From Candidatus Buchananbacteria bacterium RIFCSPHIGHO2_01_FULL_44_11 (GTDB taxonomy: Bacteria; Patescibacteriota; Patescibacteriia; Buchananbacterales; UBA6539): a DNA stretch of 38,539 nucleotides. The stretch spans positions 1 through 38,539 of the forward strand of contig MHIE01000007.1 in NCBI GenBank assembly GCA_001817345.1, written 5' to 3'. Under the pieces are notes generated by a model. The model searched no databases, had not been told where the DNA came from, and saw nothing but the letters and a program-made list of their open reading frames with translations. A program made the position numbers and the translations under genes. This document shows, in pieces, positions 4,207-36,619 of this stretch (position 1 is its first letter; the number at the start of each line of letters is the position of its first letter).

Positions 4207-5157
4207 ATGGACCGTAATTTAGCTTTAGAATTTGTTCGGGTCACCGAGGCCGCCGCCATTGCCGCGGCCAAATGGCTGGGGCGCGGGGACGGCAAAAAAG
4301 CGGACGGCGCCGCGGTGGATGAAATGCGCGACCGCTTCAATCAGATTGATTTTTCCGGTCGAGTGGTGATTGGCGAAGGGGAAAAAGATGAAGCGCCGGA
4401 GCTTTACACTGGCGAAAAAGTGGGTAAGGGCAACGGTCCGGAGATGGATTTAGCCGTTGATCCACTGGAGGCCACTGACAGCGTTGCTTTCGGCCGGCTT
4501 AATGCCATATCAGTTATCGCCGCCGGTGCCAAAGGCAGTTTGCTTCACGCGCCGGACACCTATATGGATAAGATCATAGTGGGTAAAGAAGCGGCCAGCA
4601 TTGTTGATTTAGATGCGCCGGTCAAAGTTAATTTGAATAAAATCGCCCAAGCTTTGGGCAAACCAGTTGAGGAAGTAACCGTGATGATTTTAGACCGGCC
4701 GCGGCATGAAAAGCTGATTGCCGAAATCAGAGCCGCCGGCTCAAGAGTGAGATTGATTACCGATGGTGATGTGGCGGCCGGTATCGCCAGCTGTTTAGCC
4801 GATAGCGGGGTGGATGTGGTTTTGGGTATTGGCGGTAGTACAGAAGCAGTTTTAGCCGCTGTCGCGGTAAAAATTTTGGGTGGTCAAATACTTTGCCGCT
4901 TTAAGCCCCGCCATGAAGCCGACCAAAAAGCGGTTATGGAATGTTTAGACCAAGCTGGCATTAAAGACATCAATACCATTTTTAAGGCCGAGGATTTGGC
5001 CAAGGGCCATCAGCTGACCTTTACTGCTACCGGCATTATTGACGGTCCGCTGGTGCCTGGCGTCTTATTTAAAAAAGACCAAATTATCACTCATTCAATT
5101 GTCATTCGCGGCCAGAGCGGTACGGTGCGCTATATTACGACACATCACCATAGTTAA
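4207..5157 (+). CDS. glpX: fructose-1,6-bisphosphatase, class II (GlpX)
   Basis: A 316-residue GlpX-family phosphatase, converting fructose 1,6-bisphosphate to fructose 6-phosphate with Mn2+ or Mg2+. The start is typical (MDRNLALEFVRVTEAAAIAAA), followed by WLGRGDGKKADGAAVDEMR, the metal-binding VVIGEGEKDEAPELYTGE, and AVDPLEATDSVAFGRLNA. Later elements are ITDGDVAAGIASCL, the glycine-rich GIGGSTEAVLAAVA and the C-terminal GQSGTVRYITTHH. Length is normal for the family. Some GlpX proteins also hydrolyse sedoheptulose 1,7-bisphosphate. With the neighbouring aldolase, transketolase and transaldolase it would run the reversible carbon rearrangements between triose, hexose and pentose phosphates. 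It lies 10 bases after the LOG gene and is followed by an AT-rich spacer. Confidence 0.93.
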   Translation: MDRNLALEFVRVTEAAAIAAAKWLGRGDGKKADGAAVDEMRDRFNQIDFSGRVVIGEGEKDEAPELYTGEKVGKGNGPEMDLAVDPLEATDSVAFGRLNAISVIAAGAKGSLLHAPDTYMDKIIVGKEAASIVDLDAPVKVNLNKIAQALGKPVEEVTVMILDRPRHEKLIAEIRAAGSRVRLITDGDVAAGIASCLADSGVDVVLGIGGSTEAVLAAVAVKILGGQILCRFKPRHEADQKAVMECLDQAGIKDINTIFKAEDLAKGHQLTFTATGIIDGPLVPGVLFKKDQIITHSIVIRGQSGTVRYITTHHHS

Positions 5158-5160
5158 AAA

Positions 5161-5245
5161 TTTTAAATTATAAATTTTAATTAAATAAGCTAATTTTAAA
5201 TATTTAATTATTTTGATTCTATTTAAAATTTAAAATTAGATATTG
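5161..5245. repeat. AT-rich spacer element, copy 1 (second copy at 33182-33267)
   Basis: Almost pure A/T, made of words such as TTTTAAATTATAAATTTTAA and AAATATTTAATTATTTTGATT. It matches the spacer at 33182-33267 over about 85 bases with only scattered differences and small indels. Both copies end within about 15 bases of a start codon: aldolase here, and the duplicated uvrA start there. No other element is visible between glpX and the aldolase gene. Confidence 0.75.
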
Positions 5246-5259
5246 AAAATTGTTTTTCT

Positions 5260-6216: not shown

Positions 6217-6219
6217 ATT

Positions 6220-6237
6220 ACCCCACTTCAGTGGGCG
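6220..6237. repeat. REP palindrome type 1, left of the transposase
   Basis: CCCAC-TTCA-GTGGG (6222-6235), within ACCCCACTTCAGTGGGCG. An identical copy lies at 6801-6818, right of the transposase gene. The pair brackets the gene, as expected for REP sequences linked to a RAYT. Confidence 0.8.
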
Positions 6238-6246
6238 GAATCAGAA

Positions 6247-6780
6247 ATGTCACATTTATATTTAGACGGTAGCTACTACTTTGTCACCCGGCCTACTTTT
6301 AATAAAGAAAAGTATTTTAAGGAAGATGAAAAAAAGAAAATTGTTTTGAATCGTTTGATTCTAGCCCAGAAAAAATTTGATTTTTCGCTTCACGGCTTTG
6401 CTATCATTTCTAACCACTACCATTATTTGGTATTATTAAAACAATGGAAAACCTTATCTTTAATAGAAGGATTTATAGCTGGCGGTAGCTCTTATGAACT
6501 GAATAAACTTAATGGCATCAAGCGTCGAGTTTGGGATAATTACTGGGCGGAAATTATTCAAGATGATAAAGGTTTAAGGAAAGTCTTGGGTTATATTTTA
6601 GGTAATCCCTTAAAACACGGTGAGGCCAAAAATTTTACCCAATTGCAAAAGTACCCTTTTGCTAGCTACCAACAAGCCATTGATAGCTACGGCAAACAAG
6701 AAATTGATGATTTAATCCTTGCAGTTAAAGGTTTGGATTTAGAAAATAGAACCGATTTTAAGAAGTTAATAGCCGACTAA
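6247..6780 (+). CDS. REP-associated tyrosine transposase (RAYT, IS200/IS605-like Y1 family)
   Basis: A 177-residue protein of the Y1 transposase superfamily, single-strand nucleases that nick through a tyrosine. The metal-binding HUH signature is visible as ISNHYHYLVLL around residues 56-66. The later helix LRKVLGYILGNPLKHG holds a Tyr in the position expected for the nucleophile (Tyr near residue 117). The family start is recognisable as GSYYFVTRPTFNKEKYF. Palindromes of two types surround the gene: CCCACTTCAGTGGG before and after it, and CCGACTAAAGTCGG overlapping its stop codon and again at 6825-6842. This is the arrangement of RAYT genes, which are usually single copy and thought to mobilise REP hairpins. 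It is inserted between the aldolase and transaldolase genes. Whether it is active cannot be seen. Confidence 0.87.
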   Translation: MSHLYLDGSYYFVTRPTFNKEKYFKEDEKKKIVLNRLILAQKKFDFSLHGFAIISNHYHYLVLLKQWKTLSLIEGFIAGGSSYELNKLNGIKRRVWDNYWAEIIQDDKGLRKVLGYILGNPLKHGEAKNFTQLQKYPFASYQQAIDSYGKQEIDDLILAVKGLDLENRTDFKKLIAD

Positions 6781-6842
6781 AGTCGGGTAATATATTTTTT
6801 ACCCCACTTCAGTGGGCGTGAATAAGCCGACTAAAGTCGGGC
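6771..6842. repeat. REP cluster right of the transposase (types 2, 1, 2)
   Basis: Three hairpins follow in order. AGCCGACTAAAGTCGGG (6771-6787) overlaps the end of the transposase gene, so its last codons and stop (GCC GAC TAA) lie inside the hairpin. Then comes ACCCCACTTCAGTGGGCG (6801-6818), identical to the copy at 6220. Last is AAGCCGACTAAAGTCGGGC (6824-6842). Types 1 and 2 alternate. Confidence 0.8.
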
Positions 6843-6867
6843 AATATTATAAAGTAAGACTAAAAAA

Positions 6868-21350: not shown

Positions 21351-21863
21351 ATGTCTAAAAAAGCCGTATTTATTATCGCCCAAAATGGTTTTCGCGACGA
21401 AGAACTTTTAGAGCCAAAAGCCGTCTTAGACGACCGGGGCATTCAAACCAAAGTCGCCAGTCGGACTAGAAAAAAGGCCCTGGGCAAATTGGGTACGGAA
21501 ATTGAACCCGACCTGGCTTTGGCCGAAATTCGGCCTCAAGATTTTGACGCTGTTATTTTTGTCGGCGGTCCTGGTGCCGTTGAATATCTGGCTGACCCTT
21601 TGGCCTGGAACTTGGCCAAAGGCTTTAAGCAGGCTGGAAAAGTTGTTGCCGCTATTTGTCTGGCCCCCTCGATTTTAGCCAATGCCGGTCTTTTGATCAG
21701 TAAAACCGCCACCGCCTTTCCGTCGGAAGAAAATAACTTAAAAGCCAAGGGCGCGGATTACACCGGGATGCCGGTTGAAGTGGATCAAAATATTGTCACC
21801 GCCATCGGCCCGGAAGCGGCGAAGGAATTCGGTGAGCAAATCGCCTATCTTCTGGCTGCTTAA
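21351..21863 (+). CDS. DJ-1/PfpI family protein
   Basis: A 170-residue protein of the class I glutamine amidotransferase-like fold. The DJ-1/PfpI features are the Glu in FRDEELLEP (about residue 17), the nucleophile elbow VVAAICLAPSILA with the reactive Cys near residue 104, and IFVGGPGAVEYL. The C-terminal AIGPEAAKEFGEQIAYLL is typical. Family members include intracellular proteases, chaperones and glyoxalase-like or deglycase enzymes; which activity applies cannot be read from sequence. Its last 40 bases, including stop, are within a 47-bp sequence repeated exactly 4.7 kb downstream, so this 3' end was copied or used as a recombination site. Confidence 0.88.
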   Translation: MSKKAVFIIAQNGFRDEELLEPKAVLDDRGIQTKVASRTRKKALGKLGTEIEPDLALAEIRPQDFDAVIFVGGPGAVEYLADPLAWNLAKGFKQAGKVVAAICLAPSILANAGLLISKTATAFPSEENNLKAKGADYTGMPVEVDQNIVTAIGPEAAKEFGEQIAYLLAA

Positions 21864-21870
21864 AATTTTG
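21824..21870. repeat. 47-bp perfect direct repeat, copy 1 (3' end of the PfpI gene)
   Basis: Starts GGAATTCGGTGAGCAAATCG and ends GCTTAAAATTTTG. It encodes the last 13 residues of the PfpI protein plus the stop. An identical copy lies at 26531-26577. The two copies bracket the subtilase gene. The bases outside the repeat differ completely on both sides. Confidence 0.92.
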
Positions 21871-21904
21871 TCGTAGCCTTCATCGTTAAATGCGGCTAGC
21901 AACA

Positions 21905-21933
21905 TTGATTTTTTTGTTAAAATATGCTATAAT
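21905..21933 (+). promoter_or_regulatory. promoter of the subtilase gene
   Basis: TTGATT (21905-21910), 17-base spacer ending in TGC, TATAAT (21928-21933). Expected start near 21940, with a leader of about 50 bases before ATG 21991. It lies inside the segment bracketed by the 47-bp repeats. Confidence 0.65.
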
Positions 21934-21990
21934 TAAATTGTAATAAGCTAAATCTAGCTAAAATTTTTTAAAAATAAACTCAAAATATAT

Positions 21991-24900
21991 ATGGGTTACC
22001 GTCAGGTCGAGGTTGTGACAGCGACCAAAGTTGGCATAATTGTCAAGATGACTATATTAGCCACTGCCGTTTCTACCGCCGTTATCGGTGGTCTTTTTGT
22101 TTCCAGCATGGCAGTAGGACTAAACAGTATTGCGATTTCCGAGGTTGGCGGTTTTCGGATGGCTGCAGTTAATTTATCAAAAGAAAAAACAGAGAAAGAA
22201 CAAGTTGATTATGATAAGCTTCCTCGGTATGTTCCCGGTGAAATAATCGTAAAGTTTAAAGACACAACATTAACAAATGATATTTTAAAAAATAATAAAT
22301 TATCCGCCAAGACACTAGCGACAGGCGATTCAAACCTTGATAAGCTGTTTTCAGAATATGGCATAGAATCGGCGGAAAAAGTGTTGAGGACGTCAATATC
22401 TGACCAGAACAAATTAATAGAGCAAAGCCGTTTAGTTAAATTCAAATCTCCTAAATTGAAGAATAACGCAATTTTACATCAGGAAGAAAGAGTCAAAAAT
22501 TTAGAACAGGGAAAAAAGATTGATGATCTGGATAATTTGACCCAGGATTTTATCAATAAGATAAAAAAGAATAGCAAAGTAGAATATGCTGAACCAAATT
22601 ATATTTTTAATGTCTCTAATTCTAGTCCTTGTTATAGCAGCGAAACAAAACAACTAGAAGCGCATCGCTCTGGCGTGACGGGGAATCATTCGGTAAAAAT
22701 TGCGATTGTTGATACAGGGGTTGATTCTACGCATGAAGATTTGGCGGCCAATGTGATTCCAGGTTATGATTTTGTGAATATAGATTTTGATTATTGGTCA
22801 ACTGTGCCGGGGGTTTCTTTGAATACCGGTGGCGGCAACTGTTCGCCGACCACCCCCCAATATTGTTTAGATGATTATTTTTCTCTTGACAGCGATCCGG
22901 CTGATAAAAATGGACATGGTACTCACGTAGCCGGTATTGCCGCGGCACTAGATAACACCTTTGGGATAACCGGTGTGTGCCCGGGTTGTTCTATTTTGCC
23001 AGTTCGTGCTGGCTTTAGTATTAAGTTTAACAACTACATCATTGGTACTTTAGAGAATGATGATATCTATAACGCCATAATTTATGCGACGGATCATGGC
23101 GCCAATGTAATAAATATGAGTTTTGGGGGTAGCTTCTCGGATTTGCAGCAGGAGGCAATACAGTATGCTTACGCCAAGGGGGTGACTTTAGTGGCCGCTG
23201 CTGGCAATTTTCGTACAGATGATAAAACAAATTCTTACCCAGCAGCATTTGACGACGTTTTGGCAGTTTCGGCCTTAGGCGATTGGTTTGGTGCGGCGCC
23301 TGGGGAAAAGAGCTGCTATGGGGCTGATTTCTCTAATTACGGCAGTTGGGTAGATGTTGCTGCGCCAGGGTCTTGGGTGAAATCAACTGTTCCAAAATCA
23401 TTAGAGTCTTCTGGCTATGCGCATAAGTCTGGCACTTCAATGGCCTCGCCGTACGTGGCAGGTCAAGCCGGGCTAATATTGTCAAAGTACCCAGGCTTAA
23501 GTCCAAAAAAAGTAGCTAATCTTATTGAGTTGACTGCCAATCCAAATAAAATTACTTATGATCGTTCTCATTTTTTTGGAAGTGGTGTAATTGACGTTTA
23601 CAACAGCGTCACAGAATCAATTGCACTTGCTTCGGATAGCGATATTGGTATCTCGCACCCTCTTGATAATATCATTGTGAATAGTTCGATAATTATTGAC
23701 GGCCGTGTCCAGGGGTCAAGGTATAAACTTGAATATAGCACTAATCCATACAATAATTCCTGGAGCAGCATTGTTCCCTGGTCAACGATTACGAATCCTA
23801 ACTTTTCTGTAACTTGGGATCCTTCCAGTGTTCATCTTGCGGTTGGCAAATTTTATGTTAAATTAACCGCGGAGGATATCAGTGGAGGGTTGAATACATC
23901 TTATTTGACCCTGTTTAATCAAGGATTGGGATGGCCAAAATTTTTTTATACAACGCTTGGCGTAGAAGCACACCCCACTGTAACCAAATTAAGTACTTCG
24001 AGTAACAAAAAGATATTGATTATTTCATTATCAGGCAATCCATTATATGGCGTACCAGCATCAGTGTCTCAATTTGATTTTTTTGGAAATACTGTCATTG
24101 CCTTTCCTTCCGTTGTTGGATTTAATCTATATGGCAATCAGTTAGTTGTTGGAGATATTAATAATGATGGAGAAGACGAACTGGTAATAGCAGGCAATCC
24201 GTCCGGTTGGTCGCCAAATACCGGCGGATGGGTGATAGAAGCCCACTCAAAGACCGGTGGTTTGCTATGGCGAAGAAGCGACATCACTGGTGCAGCGGCA
24301 GCCTATATTACTATTGAGGACTTGGATAATGATAAAAAAACAGAAATTCTGTATAATCATTATATATTGAATGGGTCCACCGGTACGAATTATAAAAATT
24401 TTGTCCCGACAAAGATCCCTTCTTCGGGGTTGTCGGATATGTCTTCTTACCATCTGGCAATTGACACAAATGGAGACTCAAAAAAGGAAATTATATATGG
24501 TGATTATAGCAACAGCAGTTCTTCCTTAAATGCGCTTAGTGTCAGTGATCAGGGATCGTCAATAGTGTGGTCAACCACCTTGAGCAGTCAAGTTATAACA
24601 AGCATAGTCAGTGGGGATATAAACAATGATGGCTGGCCGGAGATAATGGTCGGGACCATGGATTTGGACACCTCTAACCTCCCATCCGCCTTTCTTTATA
24701 TCTTAGATAGAAATGGCCATATCGTGAGTCGGATTGAATTAAGCGGACCAGGAGCATCGAATGACGGAACGCGTTATACAAAAGTTAGGTTAGCGCTTGC
24801 TGACCTTGATGCATCGGGCAACCTGGAAATAATTGCTACTTATTTTAATCAAATATTCATTATTAGTAATGGTACAATTTCTAAGGTAATAGCCAATGGG

Positions 24901-26409
24901 AAGGTTGGGGAAGATAATAATATCGAGGGATTGGCTATTGCTGACGTCAATAATGACAATTTTCCCGAAATTGTGGTGAACTATGAGGTTTTGTTGGCAG
25001 ACAATGAATTAAGCGGAATTAGTATATGGGATAGGCAAGGAGGACTCATGGATAGTAGAATATATCCATATAATGATTGGGGGGCAAATCCAGTCATATC
25101 TGATCTCAATGGCGATGGTAAATTAGAAATTATAGTTCATTCGAGGACTAACAGCCTTAATTCTAAAGGTCTGGTAGATATATGGAGTTTGCCCTTAAGC
25201 TATAATCCGACTAAGATGGATTGGCCGATGCTGCAACGTAATTTTCAACATACGGGTGTTTACCCCCTTCCTTCCAGGGTCACTTTTACTCAGCCGACTG
25301 TTGCGACCCAAACAATACCTGGCGTGTCCATGTCAGTGACGTGGATCGGACCTGATTTTCCTGCCAGCCAGACTGGCCAGCTGTACTTATTTGATGCGAC
25401 GGCGAACACCATGATTACCAGCCCCTATCAAGATTATATTGACCGTACACCCCCGACGACTGTTAATAGCTGGAATTTACTCTTGAGTGGAGGATCATTT
25501 AACCCGACGCTGCGTAACAACTTGCCCATGGGTTCGTACAAATTTGTCTTTGCCGACGACCCGCCAATTTCAACAATTTACGGGACCAGTCCCGTGTTCA
25601 CGGTCGGACCATATGTAACGATCAGTCAGCCAACGGCTAACTCACTCGTGTCAGCCGGTAAATCAATGCAGGTCTCGTGGACTGATCATGGGTTTGCCCA
25701 GAATCAGACTGGCTACGGTCTTTCTTCGGCTGATACTGGTTTTCTGTATCTATATAATGCTACCACGAATACCATGGTCGTTAATCCCTACCAAGATTAC
25801 ATTAATCGGGGGTATACCAATCAAAATCCATTAAATGGTTGGAATCTATACCTCTATGGGGTGTCGTTTAACCCGACCTTGCGCAATGATTTACTCGCCG
25901 GATATTATAAGTACGTGATGACTGATTTGGCAGGCAAAATTGTTGGGGTAAGTCCGAGATTCTATGTCTCAGCCTATGTGCCGCCCACCTGTACTTCAAA
26001 TTGGTCTTGCGCTGCCTGGGATCAATGTAGCTCTAGCGGTACCCAAACCCGGACTTGCATCGATGCTAATAAATGTCCGACGCCAACCAATCAACCAGCC
26101 CCCAGTCAAAGCTGTACTTATGTTACGCTCTCTGGTTTTTCTTGCCTCCAAGGTGAAACAACCTATAAGGGAGAGGAGGCAACTTACAACGGCAGTACTT
26201 GCGCTGATATTAATTCACAAAATTATCCCTCTGATGCTTATGGCCCTTGCCAATACGGTTCGCTTGGCTCATGTGCCTGGGATTATGAAACCGAAACCTG
26301 CATCAATAATTGCCAAAATTTGGAGGATTATGATTCTTGCATCAATGCCAATGAAAATCCTGAGGACCCAACCTGGTGTATTCCGGCCTCAACTCCCCCG
26401 CCACCCTAA
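21991..26409 (+). CDS. multidomain exported subtilisin-like serine protease
   Basis: A 1472-residue exported protein. After an N-terminal hydrophobic segment (about residues 12-45) comes a prodomain beginning RYVPGEIIVKFKD. The peptidase S8 domain has all three catalytic residues: Asp241 in VDTGVDSTHED, His309 in NGHGTHVAGIAA, and Ser483 in SGTSMASPYVAG, plus the oxyanion segment AAAGN. A beta-sandwich region follows, then about seven FG-GAP/VCBS-like repeats (GDINNDGEDELVIAG, EDLDNDKKTEILYN, GDINNDGWPEIMVG, SDLNGDGKLEIIVH; residues about 720-1050), likely a calcium-binding beta-propeller. Two related modules of about 115 residues share FNPTLRN. Last is a Cys-rich tail with a thrombospondin-1-like motif (WSCAAWDQCSSSGTQTRTC). 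It ends in PPPP. It probably acts at the cell surface. Codon use is more AT-rich and less regular than in the pilus genes, and the gene lies between 47-bp direct repeats, both suggesting acquisition. Confidence 0.9.
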   Translation: MGYRQVEVVTATKVGIIVKMTILATAVSTAVIGGLFVSSMAVGLNSIAISEVGGFRMAAVNLSKEKTEKEQVDYDKLPRYVPGEIIVKFKDTTLTNDILKNNKLSAKTLATGDSNLDKLFSEYGIESAEKVLRTSISDQNKLIEQSRLVKFKSPKLKNNAILHQEERVKNLEQGKKIDDLDNLTQDFINKIKKNSKVEYAEPNYIFNVSNSSPCYSSETKQLEAHRSGVTGNHSVKIAIVDTGVDSTHEDLAANVIPGYDFVNIDFDYWSTVPGVSLNTGGGNCSPTTPQYCLDDYFSLDSDPADKNGHGTHVAGIAAALDNTFGITGVCPGCSILPVRAGFSIKFNNYIIGTLENDDIYNAIIYATDHGANVINMSFGGSFSDLQQEAIQYAYAKGVTLVAAAGNFRTDDKTNSYPAAFDDVLAVSALGDWFGAAPGEKSCYGADFSNYGSWVDVAAPGSWVKSTVPKSLESSGYAHKSGTSMASPYVAGQAGLILSKYPGLSPKKVANLIELTANPNKITYDRSHFFGSGVIDVYNSVTESIALASDSDIGISHPLDNIIVNSSIIIDGRVQGSRYKLEYSTNPYNNSWSSIVPWSTITNPNFSVTWDPSSVHLAVGKFYVKLTAEDISGGLNTSYLTLFNQGLGWPKFFYTTLGVEAHPTVTKLSTSSNKKILIISLSGNPLYGVPASVSQFDFFGNTVIAFPSVVGFNLYGNQLVVGDINNDGEDELVIAGNPSGWSPNTGGWVIEAHSKTGGLLWRRSDITGAAAAYITIEDLDNDKKTEILYNHYILNGSTGTNYKNFVPTKIPSSGLSDMSSYHLAIDTNGDSKKEIIYGDYSNSSSSLNALSVSDQGSSIVWSTTLSSQVITSIVSGDINNDGWPEIMVGTMDLDTSNLPSAFLYILDRNGHIVSRIELSGPGASNDGTRYTKVRLALADLDASGNLEIIATYFNQIFIISNGTISKVIANGKVGEDNNIEGLAIADVNNDNFPEIVVNYEVLLADNELSGISIWDRQGGLMDSRIYPYNDWGANPVISDLNGDGKLEIIVHSRTNSLNSKGLVDIWSLPLSYNPTKMDWPMLQRNFQHTGVYPLPSRVTFTQPTVATQTIPGVSMSVTWIGPDFPASQTGQLYLFDATANTMITSPYQDYIDRTPPTTVNSWNLLLSGGSFNPTLRNNLPMGSYKFVFADDPPISTIYGTSPVFTVGPYVTISQPTANSLVSAGKSMQVSWTDHGFAQNQTGYGLSSADTGFLYLYNATTNTMVVNPYQDYINRGYTNQNPLNGWNLYLYGVSFNPTLRNDLLAGYYKYVMTDLAGKIVGVSPRFYVSAYVPPTCTSNWSCAAWDQCSSSGTQTRTCIDANKCPTPTNQPAPSQSCTYVTLSGFSCLQGETTYKGEEATYNGSTCADINSQNYPSDAYGPCQYGSLGSCAWDYETETCINNCQNLEDYDSCINANENPEDPTWCIPASTPPPP

Positions 26410-26429
26410 AAACACTGTCATTACCCTTT

Positions 26430-26570
26430 ATGATTAAACTGTCATCAACCAAGATTAACCTGCTGTCATTAGTTTTTAGTCTTATCGGTGGTGATTTATT
26501 AGTGGTTAATAAAACGTCGGCTCAATTACCGGAATTCGGTGAGCAAATCGCCTATCTTCTGGCTGCTTAA
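26430..26570 (+). pseudogene. signal-peptide fragment fused to the copied PfpI 3' end
   Basis: A 46-residue frame. Residues 1-34 look like the beginning of an exported protein: MIKLSSTKINLLSLVFSLIG with a basic start, a hydrophobic core, and TSAQLP at a plausible signal-peptidase site. From residue 35 on, EFGEQIAYLLAA and the stop come from the 47-bp repeat copied from the PfpI gene. The breakpoint is at 26531. I read it as an exported-protein gene truncated by the event that created the repeat; it could still be translated, but a function is unlikely. Confidence 0.7.
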
Positions 26571-26577
26571 AATTTTG
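26531..26577. repeat. 47-bp perfect direct repeat, copy 2
   Basis: Identical to 21824-21870. It joins the truncated signal-peptide frame on its left to the upstream region of the beta-helix gene on its right. So both large exported-protein genes of the region are preceded by this repeat. Confidence 0.92.
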
Positions 26578-26664
26578 GGGCAGAGTTTAACTCAAAATAA
26601 TTTTAAAAATACGGGGCATAGTGACAAAATAACAAAATTGAAATTACTCATTAAAAAAAGGGCG

Positions 26665-28770
26665 ATGGTGGTTTCATTAATCTCAATCGCCACCCTTTGT
26701 CTTGTAGTTTTAACTATCGTCTTGGCGGCGCCAGGACCAAGTGATTGGTACGTCCGGCCGGGTAGTGGTTCCGGCGACGGAACATCCTATGCCACTGCCT
26801 GGAGAGGCCTGGAAAACGTAATCTTCGGATCAGGTGGAGTCCAGGCAGGGGATACGCTTTATATTTGTGGCACTCACACGGCGGTCGGGACTCAAGTCAT
26901 CAATATTCCCTCGGGTACCGCCATTAGTCGAATCACAATCCGTATGGACTGCCCGAGCAGTGATGATGGTAAAGTATTTGGTTATATCTTTAACCTCGGC
27001 GGCTCAAGCTATCTAACTTTCTACAAATGCTACTTCGATGCCGCGCCGATTGTGATGGACAACCCCGATGACCCGGGACCGCCGGTACTGTTCTCTCATG
27101 ACGTGACTATTGATAGCTGCGTGCTGAAAAATGACATAGACAACATAATTGATTTATACGCCGGAAATGATAATTGGATAATCCGCAATTCGGATCTCTC
27201 TCAGTCGGAGACGGGAATTTACACTCATACTTCCGTAAATGCGGCCGGCGGTGCCAGCTATTTAACCGTGGAAAACAATTTTATTCACGACATGTGTTTG
27301 ACGCCAGCACAACTTGCTAATTCTGATTGCCATGCGGTTGGCATCCAAAATGGCTCCAATATTACCATCACTAAAAATCAAATTTGGAATACGGGCGCGG
27401 CGATTGAGTTTTGGTCATGGCCGACGGCGGCCATGACAAACAATACCATCAGTTATAATTTTATCAAGGATATAAAGGTGGCATCTGTGACCGAAGGCGG
27501 TGGCATAAGAGTTTCCAACCATACGTCTCCGGGTTTGAGAACGGGTTTCAAAATTTATAGTAATATTATTGAAAGTACCGGGCTAGGAGGATCTGGCACT
27601 CAAGGCAATGGCATTGAACTTAACTTGGCCGATCCCGTTGAGGTCTATAATAATGTTATTAAAGATGCAAGGGGTACGGGGATTAGTATAAAAGATGATA
27701 ATTCTGCTACTACTTATGGTGTTAGTGGATTTGTCTATAATAATATTATTGTCAATCCTGGAAATTACTATGTGTCATTAGACGGGAGGACTTATAGTAA
27801 TGCAGTAGATTTGGATTATAATGTTTATTCTCCATATCCGGCGGCCGGCAAATTTTACTTTAGACCTTCGGGAACCTATGGCGCCAATTCGATTTTTACT
27901 GATCCAAATTTTCTCAATGCCAGCGGGAACTTCAACCAGTCCACTGATTTTCAACTCCAAGCCACCAGTCTGGCCATTGATCAGGGCAGGTTAACATGGT
28001 TGACTGAAGACTTTGCGGGAAACACCATTCCCTACGACAGCACTGCTGCCGATATTGGCGCTTTTGAGTACACTCCCGGCAATACGGTGGCCACGCCCAA
28101 TGTCCAGCCAGGTACCGGCACGTACACCTCGCCGATCGCCATAACGCTAAGCAGCGCCACGGCAGGGGCGACGATCCGCTACACCACCGACGGCTCCGAG
28201 CCGACCGGCAGCTCGGTGGCTTATGCCGGAACATTCCAGGTCAGTGGCAGTCCGGGAAATTCAATCACACTCAAAGCCAAGGGATTCAAGGTTGGTATGA
28301 CTTCCAGCGATACCGCCATAAATACTTTCACGATTCCACTGACGCTGCCAGACATCACTATTGATTCGATTGCTACCAATCCGGCTCAGCCAGTAGTCGG
28401 TCAACCGGTGGCTATTATCGTCATTGGCCATAATAATGGAGGTATTAACTTGACTTCTTCTCAAGGAGTTGATAGTTTTTCTTCTGATTTTTCTACTTTT
28501 GTCCAAGCCAACCCGCCATCTTTTTCGCCGGCAATAATCGACGCCGGTCATCCATTGCTGTCGGGTCAAATTTTTACCTATACCTTTCAAGGTTCGTTTA
28601 ATACCGTTGGCAGCGCAAATTTATTATTTAGCATTGACCAGCCATCGGCGCTTGCCGAATCGAATGAAAGTAACAACACCTTTAGCAGAACAGTGATAGT
28701 TAGCGCAACAGCGCCGGTTCTCGCGCCCTTTACTACCTTCAGCAACTGCCGACCGGTTCAATCCCATTAA
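26665..28770 (+). CDS. exported beta-helix protein with chitobiase C-terminal-like and CARDB domains
   Basis: About 701 residues from ATG 26665; a TTG at 26638 would add MKLLIKKRA, which improves the signal peptide's basic start. The signal peptide is followed by DWYVRPGSGSGDGTSYATAWRG, a common beginning of secreted parallel beta-helix proteins. Residues about 60-450 show right-handed beta-helix (pectate-lyase-like) repeats with stacked Asn (VENNFIHDM, ITKNQIWNTG, TNNTISYNFI, IYSNIIESTG, VYNNVIKDA, VYNNIIVNPG). A CHB_HEX_C-like domain follows (IRYTTDGSEPTGSS), then a CARDB-like domain (ALAESNESNNTFSRTV). This suggests binding or cleaving of polysaccharide at the surface; no catalytic residue can be assigned. 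The last 22 residues (ending NCRPVQSH) are unlike the domain before and are encoded partly by a large hairpin, so the end may be altered. Confidence 0.82.
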   Translation: MVVSLISIATLCLVVLTIVLAAPGPSDWYVRPGSGSGDGTSYATAWRGLENVIFGSGGVQAGDTLYICGTHTAVGTQVINIPSGTAISRITIRMDCPSSDDGKVFGYIFNLGGSSYLTFYKCYFDAAPIVMDNPDDPGPPVLFSHDVTIDSCVLKNDIDNIIDLYAGNDNWIIRNSDLSQSETGIYTHTSVNAAGGASYLTVENNFIHDMCLTPAQLANSDCHAVGIQNGSNITITKNQIWNTGAAIEFWSWPTAAMTNNTISYNFIKDIKVASVTEGGGIRVSNHTSPGLRTGFKIYSNIIESTGLGGSGTQGNGIELNLADPVEVYNNVIKDARGTGISIKDDNSATTYGVSGFVYNNIIVNPGNYYVSLDGRTYSNAVDLDYNVYSPYPAAGKFYFRPSGTYGANSIFTDPNFLNASGNFNQSTDFQLQATSLAIDQGRLTWLTEDFAGNTIPYDSTAADIGAFEYTPGNTVATPNVQPGTGTYTSPIAITLSSATAGATIRYTTDGSEPTGSSVAYAGTFQVSGSPGNSITLKAKGFKVGMTSSDTAINTFTIPLTLPDITIDSIATNPAQPVVGQPVAIIVIGHNNGGINLTSSQGVDSFSSDFSTFVQANPPSFSPAIIDAGHPLLSGQIFTYTFQGSFNTVGSANLLFSIDQPSALAESNESNNTFSRTVIVSATAPVLAPFTTFSNCRPVQSH

Positions 28771-28915: not shown

Positions 28916-29149
28916 ACAGTTTACAGATTAAATTAATAATAATTCACGATTCAAGGTACTGTTAAGGTTCCTTTAGCTTGCTATGCCGCTATTTCACTAA
29001 AGCTTGTTACTCCCCCCTAGCAATAAATACTAAGCCCGAAACACAAAATTCGAAACAAGGTCTAAAAATCCAAATATCAAAATTCTAAAGGTCAAACCAA
29101 ATACCAATGATAAATTTAGAATTTGAATAATTATAATTTCTTTATACCA

Positions 29150-31084
29150 ATGACCCAATTTAAACTAAAAGCTCATTTCTCGCCTAAAGGCAGTCAGCCG
29201 GAAGCAATCAAAAAGCTTTTAGCTGGTTACAAAAAGTATAGCCAGCAAACTCTTTTGGGCGTGACCGGTTCGGGCAAGACTTTTACCGTTGCTAACTTGA
29301 TAGAAAAAATCCAAAAGCCGACTTTAATTTTGTCGCACAACAAAACTTTAGCCGCCCAGCTGTTCCAGGAGTTCCAGTCATTTTTTCCGGAGAATAAAGT
29401 TTGCTATTTTGTTTCTTACTACGATTACTATCAGCCGGAAAGTTATTTGCCCGCTTCAGACACTTACATTGAAAAAGACGCGATGATTAACGAACAAATT
29501 GAACGTTTACGGCTGGAAGCGGCCACGTCGTTAATGAGCCGGACCGATACCATTGTCGTCGCTTCAGTTTCTTGCATTTACGGTTTTGGCCAGCCGGCCG
29601 ATTTTGTCGGCGAAAGTCTTCATTTGCAGGTTGGTCAGAATATTAAGCGCCAGGATTTACTTCGGGCTTTGGTCGGTATTCAGTATGAACGCAGTGATTT
29701 GGAACTCCATCCCGGCCGCTTTCGGGTGCGCGGCGGTACAGTTGACGTGATTCAGGGTTCAGCCAACAGCAATATTGTCCGGCTGGAATTATTTGACGAT
29801 GTTTTGGAATCAATCACCGATGTTCATCGTTTGAGCGGCCGGAAAATCAATGATTTAAAAGAAGTTTGGCTGTATCCGGCGAGACCTTTTATCGTGCCTG
29901 AGGCAAGAGTCAAGCCGGCGTTAGCCGCGATCCGAGAAGAGCTAAAACAGCGGCTGCCGCAACTCGAGCCGCTTGAAGCCTATCGGTTGAATCAGCGGAC
30001 CAATTATGACCTGGAAATGATTGAGCAGCTGGGTTATTGCAAGGGCATTGAAAATTATTCCCGTCATTTTGATCAACGCCAAGTCGGTCAGCCGCCCTTT
30101 ACTTTGATTGATTTTTTCAATTACGTGACTAAAGACTGGCTTTTTGTGATTGACGAAAGTCATGCCACTATTCCTCAAGTCCGGGGAATGTATGAAGGCG
30201 ACCGGGCGCGCAAAAAAAACCTGATTGATTACGGCTTTCGTTTGGAGTCGGCTTATGACAACCGGCCGCTGAAATTTGCTGAATTTGAAAAATCTTTAAA
30301 GCACGTGGTTTATACTTCCGCCACTCCCAGTCAGTATGAGTTGAATTCCAGCGAGCAAGTGGTGGAACAAATTGTCCGGCCGACCGGCTTGGTTGACCCG
30401 GTGATTACCATTAAACCGGCCGTCGGTCAGGTCGCTGACTTGGTTCAAGAGATAAAAAAAACCACCAAGCTTGGCTATCGGTGTTTAGTAACAACTTTGA
30501 CCAAAAGAATGGCTGAAGATCTGACGTTGCATTTTTTAAACGAGGGTATTAGGGTTCAGTATCTTCATTCCGACATTGAGACCCTGGAGCGGATTAAAAT
30601 TATCCGTGATCTGCGGCTGGGCAAGTTTGATTGTTTAGTCGGCATCAATTTATTGCGCGAAGGATTGGATTTACCCGAAGTGGCTTTGGTGGCAATCCTA
30701 GACGCGGATAAGGAAGGTTTTTTGCGCAACAGCCGGAGCTTAATCCAAACCACCGGCCGGGCAGCCAGAAACATTGACGGCCGGGTGATTATGTATGCCG
30801 ATAAAATAACTGAGAGCATTAAAGAAGCTATTAGGGAAACTGACCGGCGGCGCCAAGTCCAGTTAGACTATAATAAAAAATACCGGATTACGCCAAAAAG
30901 TATTGTCAAAGCCATTGCCCAGGAAGAAGTCGTGATTGAACCCGGCGAAAAAGGCCGGGCATTGGAGCTGGATAAAATGCTGATTGACCTGGAAGGCCAG
31001 ATGCGGAGCGAGGCGGAAGCCTTAAACTTTGAAAAGGCAATTGAACTGAGGAATAAAATTGAAAGTCTGAAAGCAAAATTATAA
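29150..31084 (+). CDS. uvrB: UvrB, excinuclease ABC subunit B
   Basis: A 644-residue DNA damage recognition helicase of nucleotide excision repair. It is loaded by UvrA and recruits UvrC. I take ATG 29150 (MTQFKLKAHFSPKGSQPEAI); the frame is open to a TTG at 29123 but that adds nonconserved residues. Motifs: Walker A GVTGSGKTF (about 38-46), the beta-hairpin YYDYYQPESYLPASDTYIEK, DESH-box FVIDESHATIPQVRGMY, motif V/VI region LLREGLDLPEVALVAILDAD and QTTGRAARN, and the C-terminal UVR domain that contacts UvrC (ALNFEKAIELRNKIESL). Length is slightly under the usual 660-670. It has its own promoter and is followed by the DUF559 element. Confidence 0.96.
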   Translation: MTQFKLKAHFSPKGSQPEAIKKLLAGYKKYSQQTLLGVTGSGKTFTVANLIEKIQKPTLILSHNKTLAAQLFQEFQSFFPENKVCYFVSYYDYYQPESYLPASDTYIEKDAMINEQIERLRLEAATSLMSRTDTIVVASVSCIYGFGQPADFVGESLHLQVGQNIKRQDLLRALVGIQYERSDLELHPGRFRVRGGTVDVIQGSANSNIVRLELFDDVLESITDVHRLSGRKINDLKEVWLYPARPFIVPEARVKPALAAIREELKQRLPQLEPLEAYRLNQRTNYDLEMIEQLGYCKGIENYSRHFDQRQVGQPPFTLIDFFNYVTKDWLFVIDESHATIPQVRGMYEGDRARKKNLIDYGFRLESAYDNRPLKFAEFEKSLKHVVYTSATPSQYELNSSEQVVEQIVRPTGLVDPVITIKPAVGQVADLVQEIKKTTKLGYRCLVTTLTKRMAEDLTLHFLNEGIRVQYLHSDIETLERIKIIRDLRLGKFDCLVGINLLREGLDLPEVALVAILDADKEGFLRNSRSLIQTTGRAARNIDGRVIMYADKITESIKEAIRETDRRRQVQLDYNKKYRITPKSIVKAIAQEEVVIEPGEKGRALELDKMLIDLEGQMRSEAEALNFEKAIELRNKIESLKAKL

Positions 31085-33131: not shown

Positions 33132-33181
33132 ATTAGCCGTTATAATGGCAGGAATATTTCAGCCATAGTTGAACTAATTTC

Positions 33182-33267
33182 AAATTTTAAATTATAAATT
33201 TTAAATAAATGACTTAATTTTAAATATTTAATTATTTTGATTTTATTTAAAATTTAGAATTAGGTAT
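33182..33267. repeat. AT-rich spacer element, copy 2
   Basis: Same element as 5161-5245. It ends a few bases before the ATG at 33275, which begins the truncated copy of the uvrA start. This suggests it was the native spacer in front of uvrA. Confidence 0.75.
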
Positions 33268-33274
33268 TAAAAAA

Positions 33275-33301
33275 ATGTCAGAACAATTTATTAAAATTCG
33301 G
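33275..33301 (+). pseudogene. duplicated first 27 bp of uvrA (truncated copy)
   Basis: ATGTCAGAACAATTTAT, then TAAAATTCGG. This matches 33794-33820 in 26 of 27 positions (T for C in codon 6). Beyond it the sequence diverges at once into minus-strand unit C. The frame does not continue into uvrA. Confidence 0.88.
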
Positions 33302-33310
33302 AGTATTTTT

Positions 33311-33356
33311 GTTAGAAAAGAAAAGAGCGCCTGCCATTTCAAGAAACAGGACGCTC
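33311..33356 (-). terminator. intrinsic terminator of minus-strand unit C
   Basis: On the minus strand GAGCG(T)CCTG (33356-33347) pairs with CAGGCGCTC (33333-33325), a 9-bp stem with one bulge, followed by TTTTCTTTTC. It ends the unit just before the duplicated uvrA start. Confidence 0.75.
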
Positions 33357-33575
33357 GGGATGAGGGTATATAGAGCAGAAAGCCATCTAGCACACGGCTT
33401 AAATCTTTTCTCGTCACCCGATACGCAGGTCCCGCGAACCGGCCACAATTTGGCCGAGGAATTTGCGGTTGCCGCATTGTATGGGATTTCGGAGATTGGA
33501 TCGGGTAAGTTATGCTAGGGCTTAAGGGAAAAAAAGTTGCTGCGGGAATCATCTTTTGGCTGTAACCCGTAGGCC

Positions 33576-33644
33576 TTAGACGACGACGACGGCTTCGCTT
33601 GAAGCACCTCCAGCAACTTCCCTCTGAATAAAAAGAACAAGCAT
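33576..33644 (-). CDS. possible 22-residue leader peptide ending in four valines (unit C)
   Basis: The frame MLVLFIQREVAGGASSEAVV continues with VV and TAA. It is the first ATG of unit C, about 27 bases after the predicted transcription start and next to a hairpin (ATCTCAT/ATGAGAT). Its codons 9-11 form one arm (AAGTTGCTG) of a 9-bp stem whose other arm (CAGCAACTT, 33542-33534) is followed by T7, which is attenuator-like. Leader peptides with runs of Val/Leu/Ile codons control branched-chain amino-acid operons in other bacteria. Here no such gene follows: only about 200 bases of unassigned sequence and a terminator. The Shine-Dalgarno is weak. The whole unit might instead be a non-coding RNA of about 350 bases. 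Confidence 0.35.
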   Translation of the reverse strand: MLVLFIQREVAGGASSEAVVVV

Positions 33645-33677
33645 TATCTCATCAGAGGCAATCTCTAATGAGATGGC

Positions 33678-33706
33678 AGTGTATCATATTAAATAATTTT
33701 TGTCAA
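33678..33706 (-). promoter_or_regulatory. promoter of minus-strand unit C
   Basis: On the minus strand TTGACA (33706-33701), 17-base spacer ending TGA (extended -10), TACACT (33683-33678). Start near 33671. It fires away from uvrA. Confidence 0.72.
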
Positions 33707-33793
33707 GGGTTTTTCAAAATATAACAAATTTTGGCTAAAATATGGCAAAAATAAAGAAAATATCATTATTAAAGCGGTCTATGAGCACCTAAT

Positions 33794-36619
33794 ATGTCAG
33801 AACAATTTATCAAAATTCGGGGTGCCCGAGAGCATAATCTTAAAAACGTTGACGTGGATATTCCCATTGATCAATTAACGGTCATTACCGGTTTATCCGG
33901 TTCGGGCAAATCAACGCTGGCTTTTGACACCTTATATGCCGAAGGTCAGCGCCGATACGTGGAGTCGCTTTCGGCTTATGCCCGGCAATTTTTGGGTTTG
34001 ATGAATAAACCCGACGTTGACCGTATTTCCGGTCTTTCACCGGCGATTTCCATTGAGCAGAAATCGGTTTCCAAAAATCCGCGGTCAACCGTGGGTACGA
34101 TTACCGAAATCCACGATTATCTCCGGCTGCTTTACGCCCGGATTGGCCAGCCCCATTGCCCGCAGTGCGGCAAAAAAATCATGCCCCAGTCCGTGGAATC
34201 AATTAGTCAACTGATTCTTCAAGAAAAATCCGGCCGTAAGCTCCAAATTTTGGCGCCGGTGGTCCGGGGCAAAAAAGGCACTTACGAACAGTTGTTTCAG
34301 GATTTATTCAAACAAGGTCACCGCCAAGTCCGGGTGGACGGTGCGACTTTTGATTTAGCCGATTGGTCTGAGATTAAACTGAACAAGCAGAATAAGCACA
34401 ATATTGAAGTGATGATTGACCGGTTGCTGATTAAAAAAGACGTTTTTTCCCGGCTTCAGGAAGCGATTGAAGCGGCCGTCACTTTGGCCGCCGGGTTAGT
34501 CTTGATTCTGGAAGCCGACAAAGAAAAACTTTTTTCCCAAAACAATTCCTGCCCGGACTGCGGCATTTCTTTTGAAGAACTTCAGCCGAGGATGTTTTCT
34601 TTCAACTCACCCTTTGGCGCTTGTCCAGAGTGCCACGGTCTGGGGTTTTTGCAGCGGATTGACGCTGACTTGGTTGTACCCGACAAAAATCTATCTTTAG
34701 CCGAAGGAGCGATCCGGCCCTGGCAGACCCACGGGGAAGGCTGGCGGAAAAAAATGTTGGAAAGTCTGGCCGAGCATTACCATTTTGATTTGTGGCAGGC
34801 CTGGAAAAAACTGCCGAAAACCGTTCAAGATATTATTTTTTACGGCTCAAAAGACGAAATCAAGTTTGATTTGCATTCCTTTGACCGTAATTCCAACTAT
34901 TCCTGGACTGGCCAATTTGAAGGCGTGATGCCTCAACTCGAGCGGCTTTACAAACAAACCGAATCGGATTATCGCCGGCAGGAATTGGAAAAATATATGG
35001 TGATGGGGGAGTGTTCTGTTTGCCGGGGCAAAAGATTAAAACCCGAGTCGCTGGGTGTGAGCATTAACGACCAGAACATCTGGCAGGTGTCCGAACTTGC
35101 CATTGCCAAAGCCTTTGAATTTTTTGACCATTTGAAATTAACCAAAGAAGAAAGCCAGATTGCCAAGTTGATTTTGAAAGAGATAAAAGACCGTTTGCTG
35201 TTTTTGATTGACGTCGGCTTGGATTATTTGAATTTAAACCGCGCGGCGGGGACTTTGGCCGGCGGCGAAGCCCAGCGGATCAGGTTGGCGACCCAAGTCG
35301 GCTCCGAACTTCGGGGAGTTTTGTATATTTTGGACGAACCGTCAATCGGCCTGCATCAGCGCGATAACCGGCGGCTGATTGACACTTTAAAGCGGTTGCG
35401 CGACTTGGGCAACACCGTTTTGGTGGTTGAACACGACCAAGAAACGATTTTGACTGCCGATTACGTCATTGACCTGGGGCCAGGCGCGGGTATTCACGGC
35501 GGCCAGATTGTCTGCGCCGGCAGTCCGGAGAAAATTAAAAAATGTAAGCAGTCAATCACCGGTCAATATTTAACTGGTCAAAAATCCATTACCCTGCCGG
35601 CGCAGCGCCGCAAGGCTTTTGACTGGTTGGAGGTTTTAGGCGCCAGCGAGCACAATTTGAAAAATATTGACGTCAAAATTCCCTTGAAGGTTTTTTGCTG
35701 CGTTACCGGCGTTTCCGGTTCGGGCAAATCGACTTTGGTTAACGACATTTTATACAACGCTTTGGCCAAAGTTTTGCACGGCGCGACTGAGCCGGTCGGC
35801 CGGCATAAAGCCCTGCGCGGCTACGGGAGGCTGGAAAAAGCGATTATGGTTGACCAGTCGCCGATTGGCCGCACCCCGCGCTCCAATCCCGCCACTTATA
35901 TTGGGGTTTTTACGCCCACCCGGGAACTGTTTGCTTCTACCCCGGAAGCCAAGGTCCGCGGCTACAAAGTCGGCCGGTTCAGTTTTAACGTCGCCGGCGG
36001 CCGGTGCGAAGAATGCGAGGGCGACGGCGTTAAAAAAATTGAAATGCATTTTTTACCCGATGTTTACATTGAGTGCCAGCAATGCAAAGGCAAGCGCTAC
36101 AACCAAGAGACTCTGACGGTTAAGTATAAAGGCAAAAACATCGCCGAAGTTTTGGACATGACCGTGGAAGAGGCCTTGGAATTTTTTAAACCCATCCCGG
36201 CGATTAAAAATAAACTCCAGACTTTGTTTGACGTCGGTCTGGGTTATATTAAGCTGGGTCAGCCGGCCACGACTTTATCGGGCGGCGAGGCTCAGCGGGT
36301 CAAATTAACGGCGGAACTTTCCCGCAAAGGCGGCGATGCCCTCTATATTTTAGATGAACCAACGACCGGCCTGCATTTTGACGACGTTAATAAACTGCTT
36401 TCGGTTTTGAATCGGCTGGTGGATAAAGGCAATAGCGTGTTAGTCATTGAACACAATTTGGACGTGATTAAGTGCGCTGACTGGGTAATTGATTTAGGGC
36501 CGGAGGGCGGACAGAAAGGCGGGCAAGTGATTGTTGAAGGCAGCCCGGAAAAAATTGCCAAGTGCGCCAAATGGAGTTATACTGGTCAATTTTTAAAACC
36601 GTTGTTGAAATTAAAGTAA
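33794..36619 (+). CDS. uvrA: UvrA, excinuclease ABC subunit A
   Basis: A 941-residue ABC-type ATPase that scans DNA for lesions and loads UvrB. Two nucleotide-binding halves are complete. First: Walker [17 protein letters not shown] (about 31-46), zinc Cys pairs CPQC and CPDC...CPEC, signature [12 protein letters not shown] (Ala where Ser is usual), and Walker [17 protein letters not shown]. Second: Walker [17 protein letters not shown], the zinc hairpin [16 protein letters not shown] to CQQC, signature [12 protein letters not shown] and [11 protein letters not shown]. Length is normal. I chose ATG 33794 because an [18 protein letters not shown] start is conserved in the family. The same 27 bases occur at 33275, on the far side of unit C, so the gene's start was duplicated and its original spacer displaced. 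No strong promoter is obvious in 33707-33793. Confidence 0.96.

Follow-up and report, generated by a model that had tools for sequence, protein, structure and literature searches.

A 47-bp sequence from the 3' end of a PfpI-family gene occurs twice, as a direct repeat, in Candidatus Buchananbacteria bacterium RIFCSPHIGHO2_01_FULL_44_11, where the two copies bracket a gene for an exported subtilase. In the assembled sequence, the observation holds. To read it as the integration of an element at PfpI, as the original prediction did, is to over-read it; most likely, it is an ordinary scar in a variable slot. We put at about one half the probability that the 47 bp are the junction scar of a one-off recombination without site specificity in this slot, and not an att site. 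Unless a contig is named, coordinates refer to the window, the whole stretch of 38,539 nucleotides (contig MHIE01000007.1) that was analysed. The features at this locus are as follows.

21351–21863, + strand: PfpI gene (DJ-1/PfpI family, 170 aa, PF01965 at 1.1e-38), intact, its 3' end being copy 1
21824–21870, + strand: repeat copy 1, made up of the final 13 PfpI codons, the stop and 7 nt
21871–26530: inter-copy segment, 4660 bp, 41.8% GC
21991–26409, + strand: exported subtilase, 1472 aa, FG-GAP repeats and, at the C terminus, cysteine modules (PF00082 at 1.3e-50, PF13517)
26430–26567, + strand: truncated signal-peptide frame read from the sequence, 34 codons plus the 12 last PfpI codons in frame
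26531–26577, + strand: repeat copy 2
26638–28770, + strand: exported right-handed beta-helix / CHB_HEX_C / CARDB protein (PF13229, PF13290, PF07705)
29123–31084, + strand: uvrB, conserved right border of the slot (a 65–71% identical uvrB lies downstream of PfpI in four relatives)

The repeat, GGAATTCGGTGAGCAAATCGCCTATCTTCTGGCTGCTTAAAATTTTG, is exact (47/47) at a spacing of 4707 bp. This length is far beyond chance expectation: across 60 simulated windows matched in dinucleotide composition, exact direct repeats reached a length of 17 at most. A third copy, with up to three mismatches allowed, is absent from the rest of the 943-kb assembly (78% complete). Similarity is lost abruptly on either side, at the borders of the 47 bp, and a tandem duplication of the 4.7 kb is therefore excluded.

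The sequence belongs to PfpI. Orthologues in family members are 54–69% identical, several of them in the same genomic position, and share the C-terminal peptide, for example KEFGERLAYLLEG and KEFGEALAYLLEG. Since this peptide end is conserved in relatives, the 47-bp sequence must originate from PfpI, whose final 40 coding bases thus have a second copy 4.7 kb downstream. Terminator folding of the two PfpI flanks, computed to find the older one, gave z scores of -1.0 and 0.0.

Between the copies, the only open reading frames are the subtilase, the stub (the truncated signal-peptide frame) and short overlapping frames. Neither the frames nor Pfam searches revealed a recombinase, transposase or other mobility gene in this 4.7 kb, and the 4.75-kb segment matched no plasmid record. 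Within the genome, its tetranucleotide distance ranks at the 95th percentile and the codon usage of the subtilase gene at the 7th. Subtilase matches at E<=1e-30 occur in 30 of the 381 genomes of the class, own genome counted, and its phage relatives are limited to distant matches in the protease domain. The cysteine-rich C-terminal modules also occur in further proteins encoded by this genome, and this speaks against contamination by an unrelated organism.

The stub merges with copy 2. From the ATG at 26430, the frame reads MIKLSSTKINLLSLVFSLIGGDLLVVNKTSAQLP up to the joint and, in copy 2, EFGEQIAYLLAA followed by a stop. The signal-peptide frame breaks off exactly at copy 2, and its 34 residues have no other copy in the assembly. 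The frame is maintained over the joint, for which the odds by chance are one in three. Downstream, the beta-helix protein may start at a TTG (26638) or an ATG (26665); the codon usage of its gene lies at the 12th percentile of the genome, and no full-length relative was found in 55 related genomes.

These results bear out what had been described from the letters of the window alone: an exact repeat that consists of the last 13 PfpI codons, the stop and 7 nt, brackets the subtilase gene and leaves PfpI intact; a second copy fused to a truncated signal-peptide frame; an exported-protein gene after each copy; and no integrase in the segment.

We compared the locus with its counterparts in members of the same family and order. 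In four of these relatives, the order of type IV pilus genes (pilM–pilA), PfpI, slot, uvrB and uvrA is kept, and the distance from PfpI to uvrB is 1.0–1.8 kb versus 7.3 kb here. The cargo, named by inspecting translated sequence and not by family search, is trxB (thioredoxin reductase) in G002 and a glutaredoxin, a thioredoxin and two small genes in G003; in G009 and G007 almost nothing lies between PfpI and uvrB. On further contigs, where the stretch read holds no uvrB, what comes after PfpI is trxB (G005) or thioredoxin-type genes (G004, G001). The contents differ among relatives, and the PfpI–uvrB interval is therefore a variable slot. None of the relatives carries the subtilase or the beta-helix protein in it, nor a repeat of the PfpI end downstream of PfpI. 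When GTDB species genomes were scanned with PfpI, no close relative appeared beyond one already in the comparison.

Seen against these relatives, the 7.3 kb of slot content is a lineage-specific gain on either side of copy 2, and not just between the copies. The original idea that the DNA after PfpI is added material thus stands: it is gained relative to the relatives, and the composition of the segment is unusual both in tetranucleotides (95th percentile) and in codon usage (7th). The suggestion that the repeat is a site for swapping exported-protein genes holds in part; the interval is a variable slot, but the 47-mer bears no sign of repeated swapping. The genome has no third copy of the 47-mer, and the relatives have no repeated PfpI end. 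A lack both of further copies and of empty-site relatives had been named as counting against the prediction. The first applies; as to the second, different content or little stands after PfpI in family-level relatives.

Starting from the repeat, the truncation and the variability of the slot in relatives, which are observed, we infer a mechanism and an order of events. The PfpI–uvrB interval would gain and lose accessory genes, and the exported-protein genes would have entered it in this lineage through recombination lacking site specificity. At one joint, the interior of a signal-peptide gene, resident or incoming, would have been fused to a DNA end that starts 40 coding nucleotides before the end of PfpI, with the outcome that the PfpI end is present twice. 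Two routes can be envisaged. Along route (a), homology-facilitated illegitimate recombination (HFIR) would have joined two variants of the slot, PfpI–subtilase–stub gene and PfpI–beta-helix–uvrB, with the crossover on the uvrB side homologous and the joint on the left illegitimate; this would explain both the truncated stub and the presence of accessory DNA on both sides of copy 2. Along route (b), a linear fragment would have been inserted at a staggered break and the 47-nt overhang filled in, like a target-site duplication, which would explain the duplication directly. Both routes fit, and the data do not distinguish between them.

Among transformable bacteria, HFIR is well established (PMC6382021). 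As in the reading proposed for this locus, it expects a homologous joint on one side and an illegitimate one on the other, with foreign DNA gained and resident sequence lost at the joint. In contrast to that system, the event here is read from a single allele and, as to DNA uptake, comEC was not found in the assembly (genome 78% complete). Ku is absent from the assembly as well, and end joining would therefore need an alternative pathway. That the signal-peptide frame is cut at copy 2 and recurs nowhere else in the assembly is as expected of an illegitimate joint. The single repeat pair, the truncated stub, the atypical composition and the sporadic subtilase and beta-helix genes all fit a recombination scar.

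We weighed several other explanations. An assembly chimera, which we consider unlikely while taking it seriously, would have arisen from two strains that are alike up to the 47-mer and then continue into the subtilase in one and the beta-helix side in the other; by joining the branches, the assembler would have doubled the 47 shared bases, with a result that looks just like the arrangement seen here. The exactness of the repeat and the truncated frame to the left of copy 2 suit this account, and the draft (30 contigs, 15 short N gaps) has flaws elsewhere. At one gap (contig C20, 349–372), an overlap of 32 bp was left unmerged and stands on either side, and contig C8 has a perfect 554-bp inverted repeat (33217–33770 and 33809–34362, 38-bp spacer) that is likely a fold-back artefact. 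However, the joint at copy 2 is free of N. Overlaps between contig ends measure 25, 51, 60, 74 and about 86–91, with no constant 47, and so lend no support to a fixed assembler k of 47, a candidate that we rejected. Internal exact repeats of up to 106 bp are bridged in the assembly, and the assembler should therefore span 47 bp. Finally, the genome has diverged gene-end duplications at uvrA and secA (described below), which are not something an assembler would invent.

Site-specific integration, the reading put forward originally, appears quite improbable. It would have a recombinase of the tyrosine or serine type, either working in trans or lost since then, insert an island of the cis-mobilizable type at the PfpI 3' end, the two copies being attL and attR. 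Elements do integrate into the 3' ends of protein genes, icd in E. coli being an example, and an intact PfpI with its 3' end repeated at the far border is the usual picture for integration in the 3'-distal part of such genes. Five tyrosine recombinases and one serine recombinase are encoded elsewhere in the genome, on other contigs. Among thaumarchaeal elements, 14 of 68 have the 3'-distal part of a protein-coding gene as their integration site (PMC6563490), and tyrosine-recombinase elements of this kind likewise leave the target gene intact and repeat its 3' end at the far border. What differs here is that there is no integrase, no pair of empty and occupied sites and no recurrence of the site, while the far joint holds a truncated gene, which is unexpected for an att border. 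The ssrA islands of Dehalococcoides (15 islands) also include members without an integrase, with cargo between direct repeats of a gene end and no integration module (PMC3146451); there, however, many repeat copies and sister islands with an integrase occupy one site, whereas here we see a single pair. With neither a third, att-like copy in the genome nor a repeated PfpI end in relatives, the site shows no reuse. The 4.7 kb hold no gene for a recombinase or any other mobility function, a search of 2.9 million viral contigs gave no exact 47-mer, and no plasmid record matches the segment; the claim of integration was not borne out. If the segment were absent, the junction would read PfpI, the 47-mer and GGGGCAGAG, and a circle would join 26530 to 21871 through one 47-mer; in the family and order members compared, PfpI is followed by other genes or by little.

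To a transposon-like insertion with a long target-site duplication we give very little credence. It would account for a target duplicated directly around an unrelated segment and for gene-end duplications of 33–47 nt at three loci. Known transposons, however, duplicate targets much shorter than 47 nt; the segment has no transposase frame, its ends are not inverted repeats by inspection, and the three intervening segments have no sequence in common. Highly improbable, too, is a general insertion process without sequence specificity that would duplicate 33–47 nt of its target and deliver accessory DNA beside core genes with neither integrase nor transposase, its products surviving only where the duplication covers a gene end and leaves the genes intact (PfpI 3', uvrA 5', secA 5').

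Contig C19 carries a diversity-generating retroelement (41469–42092 and 40069–41082), with a template and a variable repeat (TR/VR) 492 bp apart and an adjoining reverse transcriptase gene; 21 of the 25 mismatches between TR and VR are at a template A. We rejected such an element as the cause of the PfpI repeat, whose copies, unlike the C19 pair, are identical and free of A-specific changes. The window has a second reverse transcriptase gene (PF00078), of unassigned type, at 381–1511, and a search of the first 6.5 kb of the window against the genome gave no template/variable repeat pair. A Y1 (IS200-like) transposase gene lies at 6247–6780 (weak Pfam match), within 6218–6847, flanked by the short hairpin-like repeats TTACCCCACTTCAGTGGGCG and AGCCGACTAAAGTCGGG.

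Scanning 938 kb of the genome for gene-end duplications free of paralogy and dispersed repeats returned two further examples.

33272–33304 and 33791–33823, + strand: 5' end of uvrA (first ~30 nt) duplicated, 33 nt at 91% identity, the copy 519 bp upstream
Contig C21, 8341–8375 and 8530–8564: 5' end of secA (first ~33 nt; SecA by Pfam) duplicated, 35 nt at 94% identity, the copy 189 bp upstream

In neither case does similarity extend past the ends of the repeat. The upstream secA copy begins a 53-codon frame whose initial residues match SecA. The stretch between the uvrA copies matches no Rfam family, and no structured RNA or tmRNA was found in it. If the C8 inverted repeat and regions that are multi-copy or repetitive internally are set aside, controls on the opposite strand and in mid-gene gave few comparable matches. 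In the relative G002 (601 kb scanned), a duplication at 260478/261773 looked by eye like a repeated promoter and was left out of the count.

The segments enclosed at PfpI, uvrA and secA share no sequence with one another. That the loci are unrelated in sequence argues against one site-specific cause and against a single sequence-specific site. The PfpI copies are 100% identical, unlike those of uvrA and secA, and the three cases may therefore differ in cause. A common mechanism is, at n=3, a suggestion, and the uvrA and secA cases give a hint that scars of this kind are recurrent in the genome.

A separate observation concerns the uvrA remnant copy, which directly follows a ~100-bp AT-rich, partly palindromic dispersed repeat. 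This repeat occurs in at least six places in the genome, namely in the window at 5151–5249, upstream of fba, and at 33175–33273, upstream of the uvrA remnant, and at C21:16063, C20:9678, C4:3856 and C6:38387. Possibly it is a non-autonomous element of small size.

The PfpI repeat, being one pair in one draft genome, is mainly a caution against calling every repeated gene end an att site. Read as a recombination scar, it would be a concrete trace of a small-genome bacterium gaining genes for surface or secreted proteins next to its core genes with no mobile element to be recognised. Should the gene-end duplications turn out to be a single process, such gains could be mapped by their scars.
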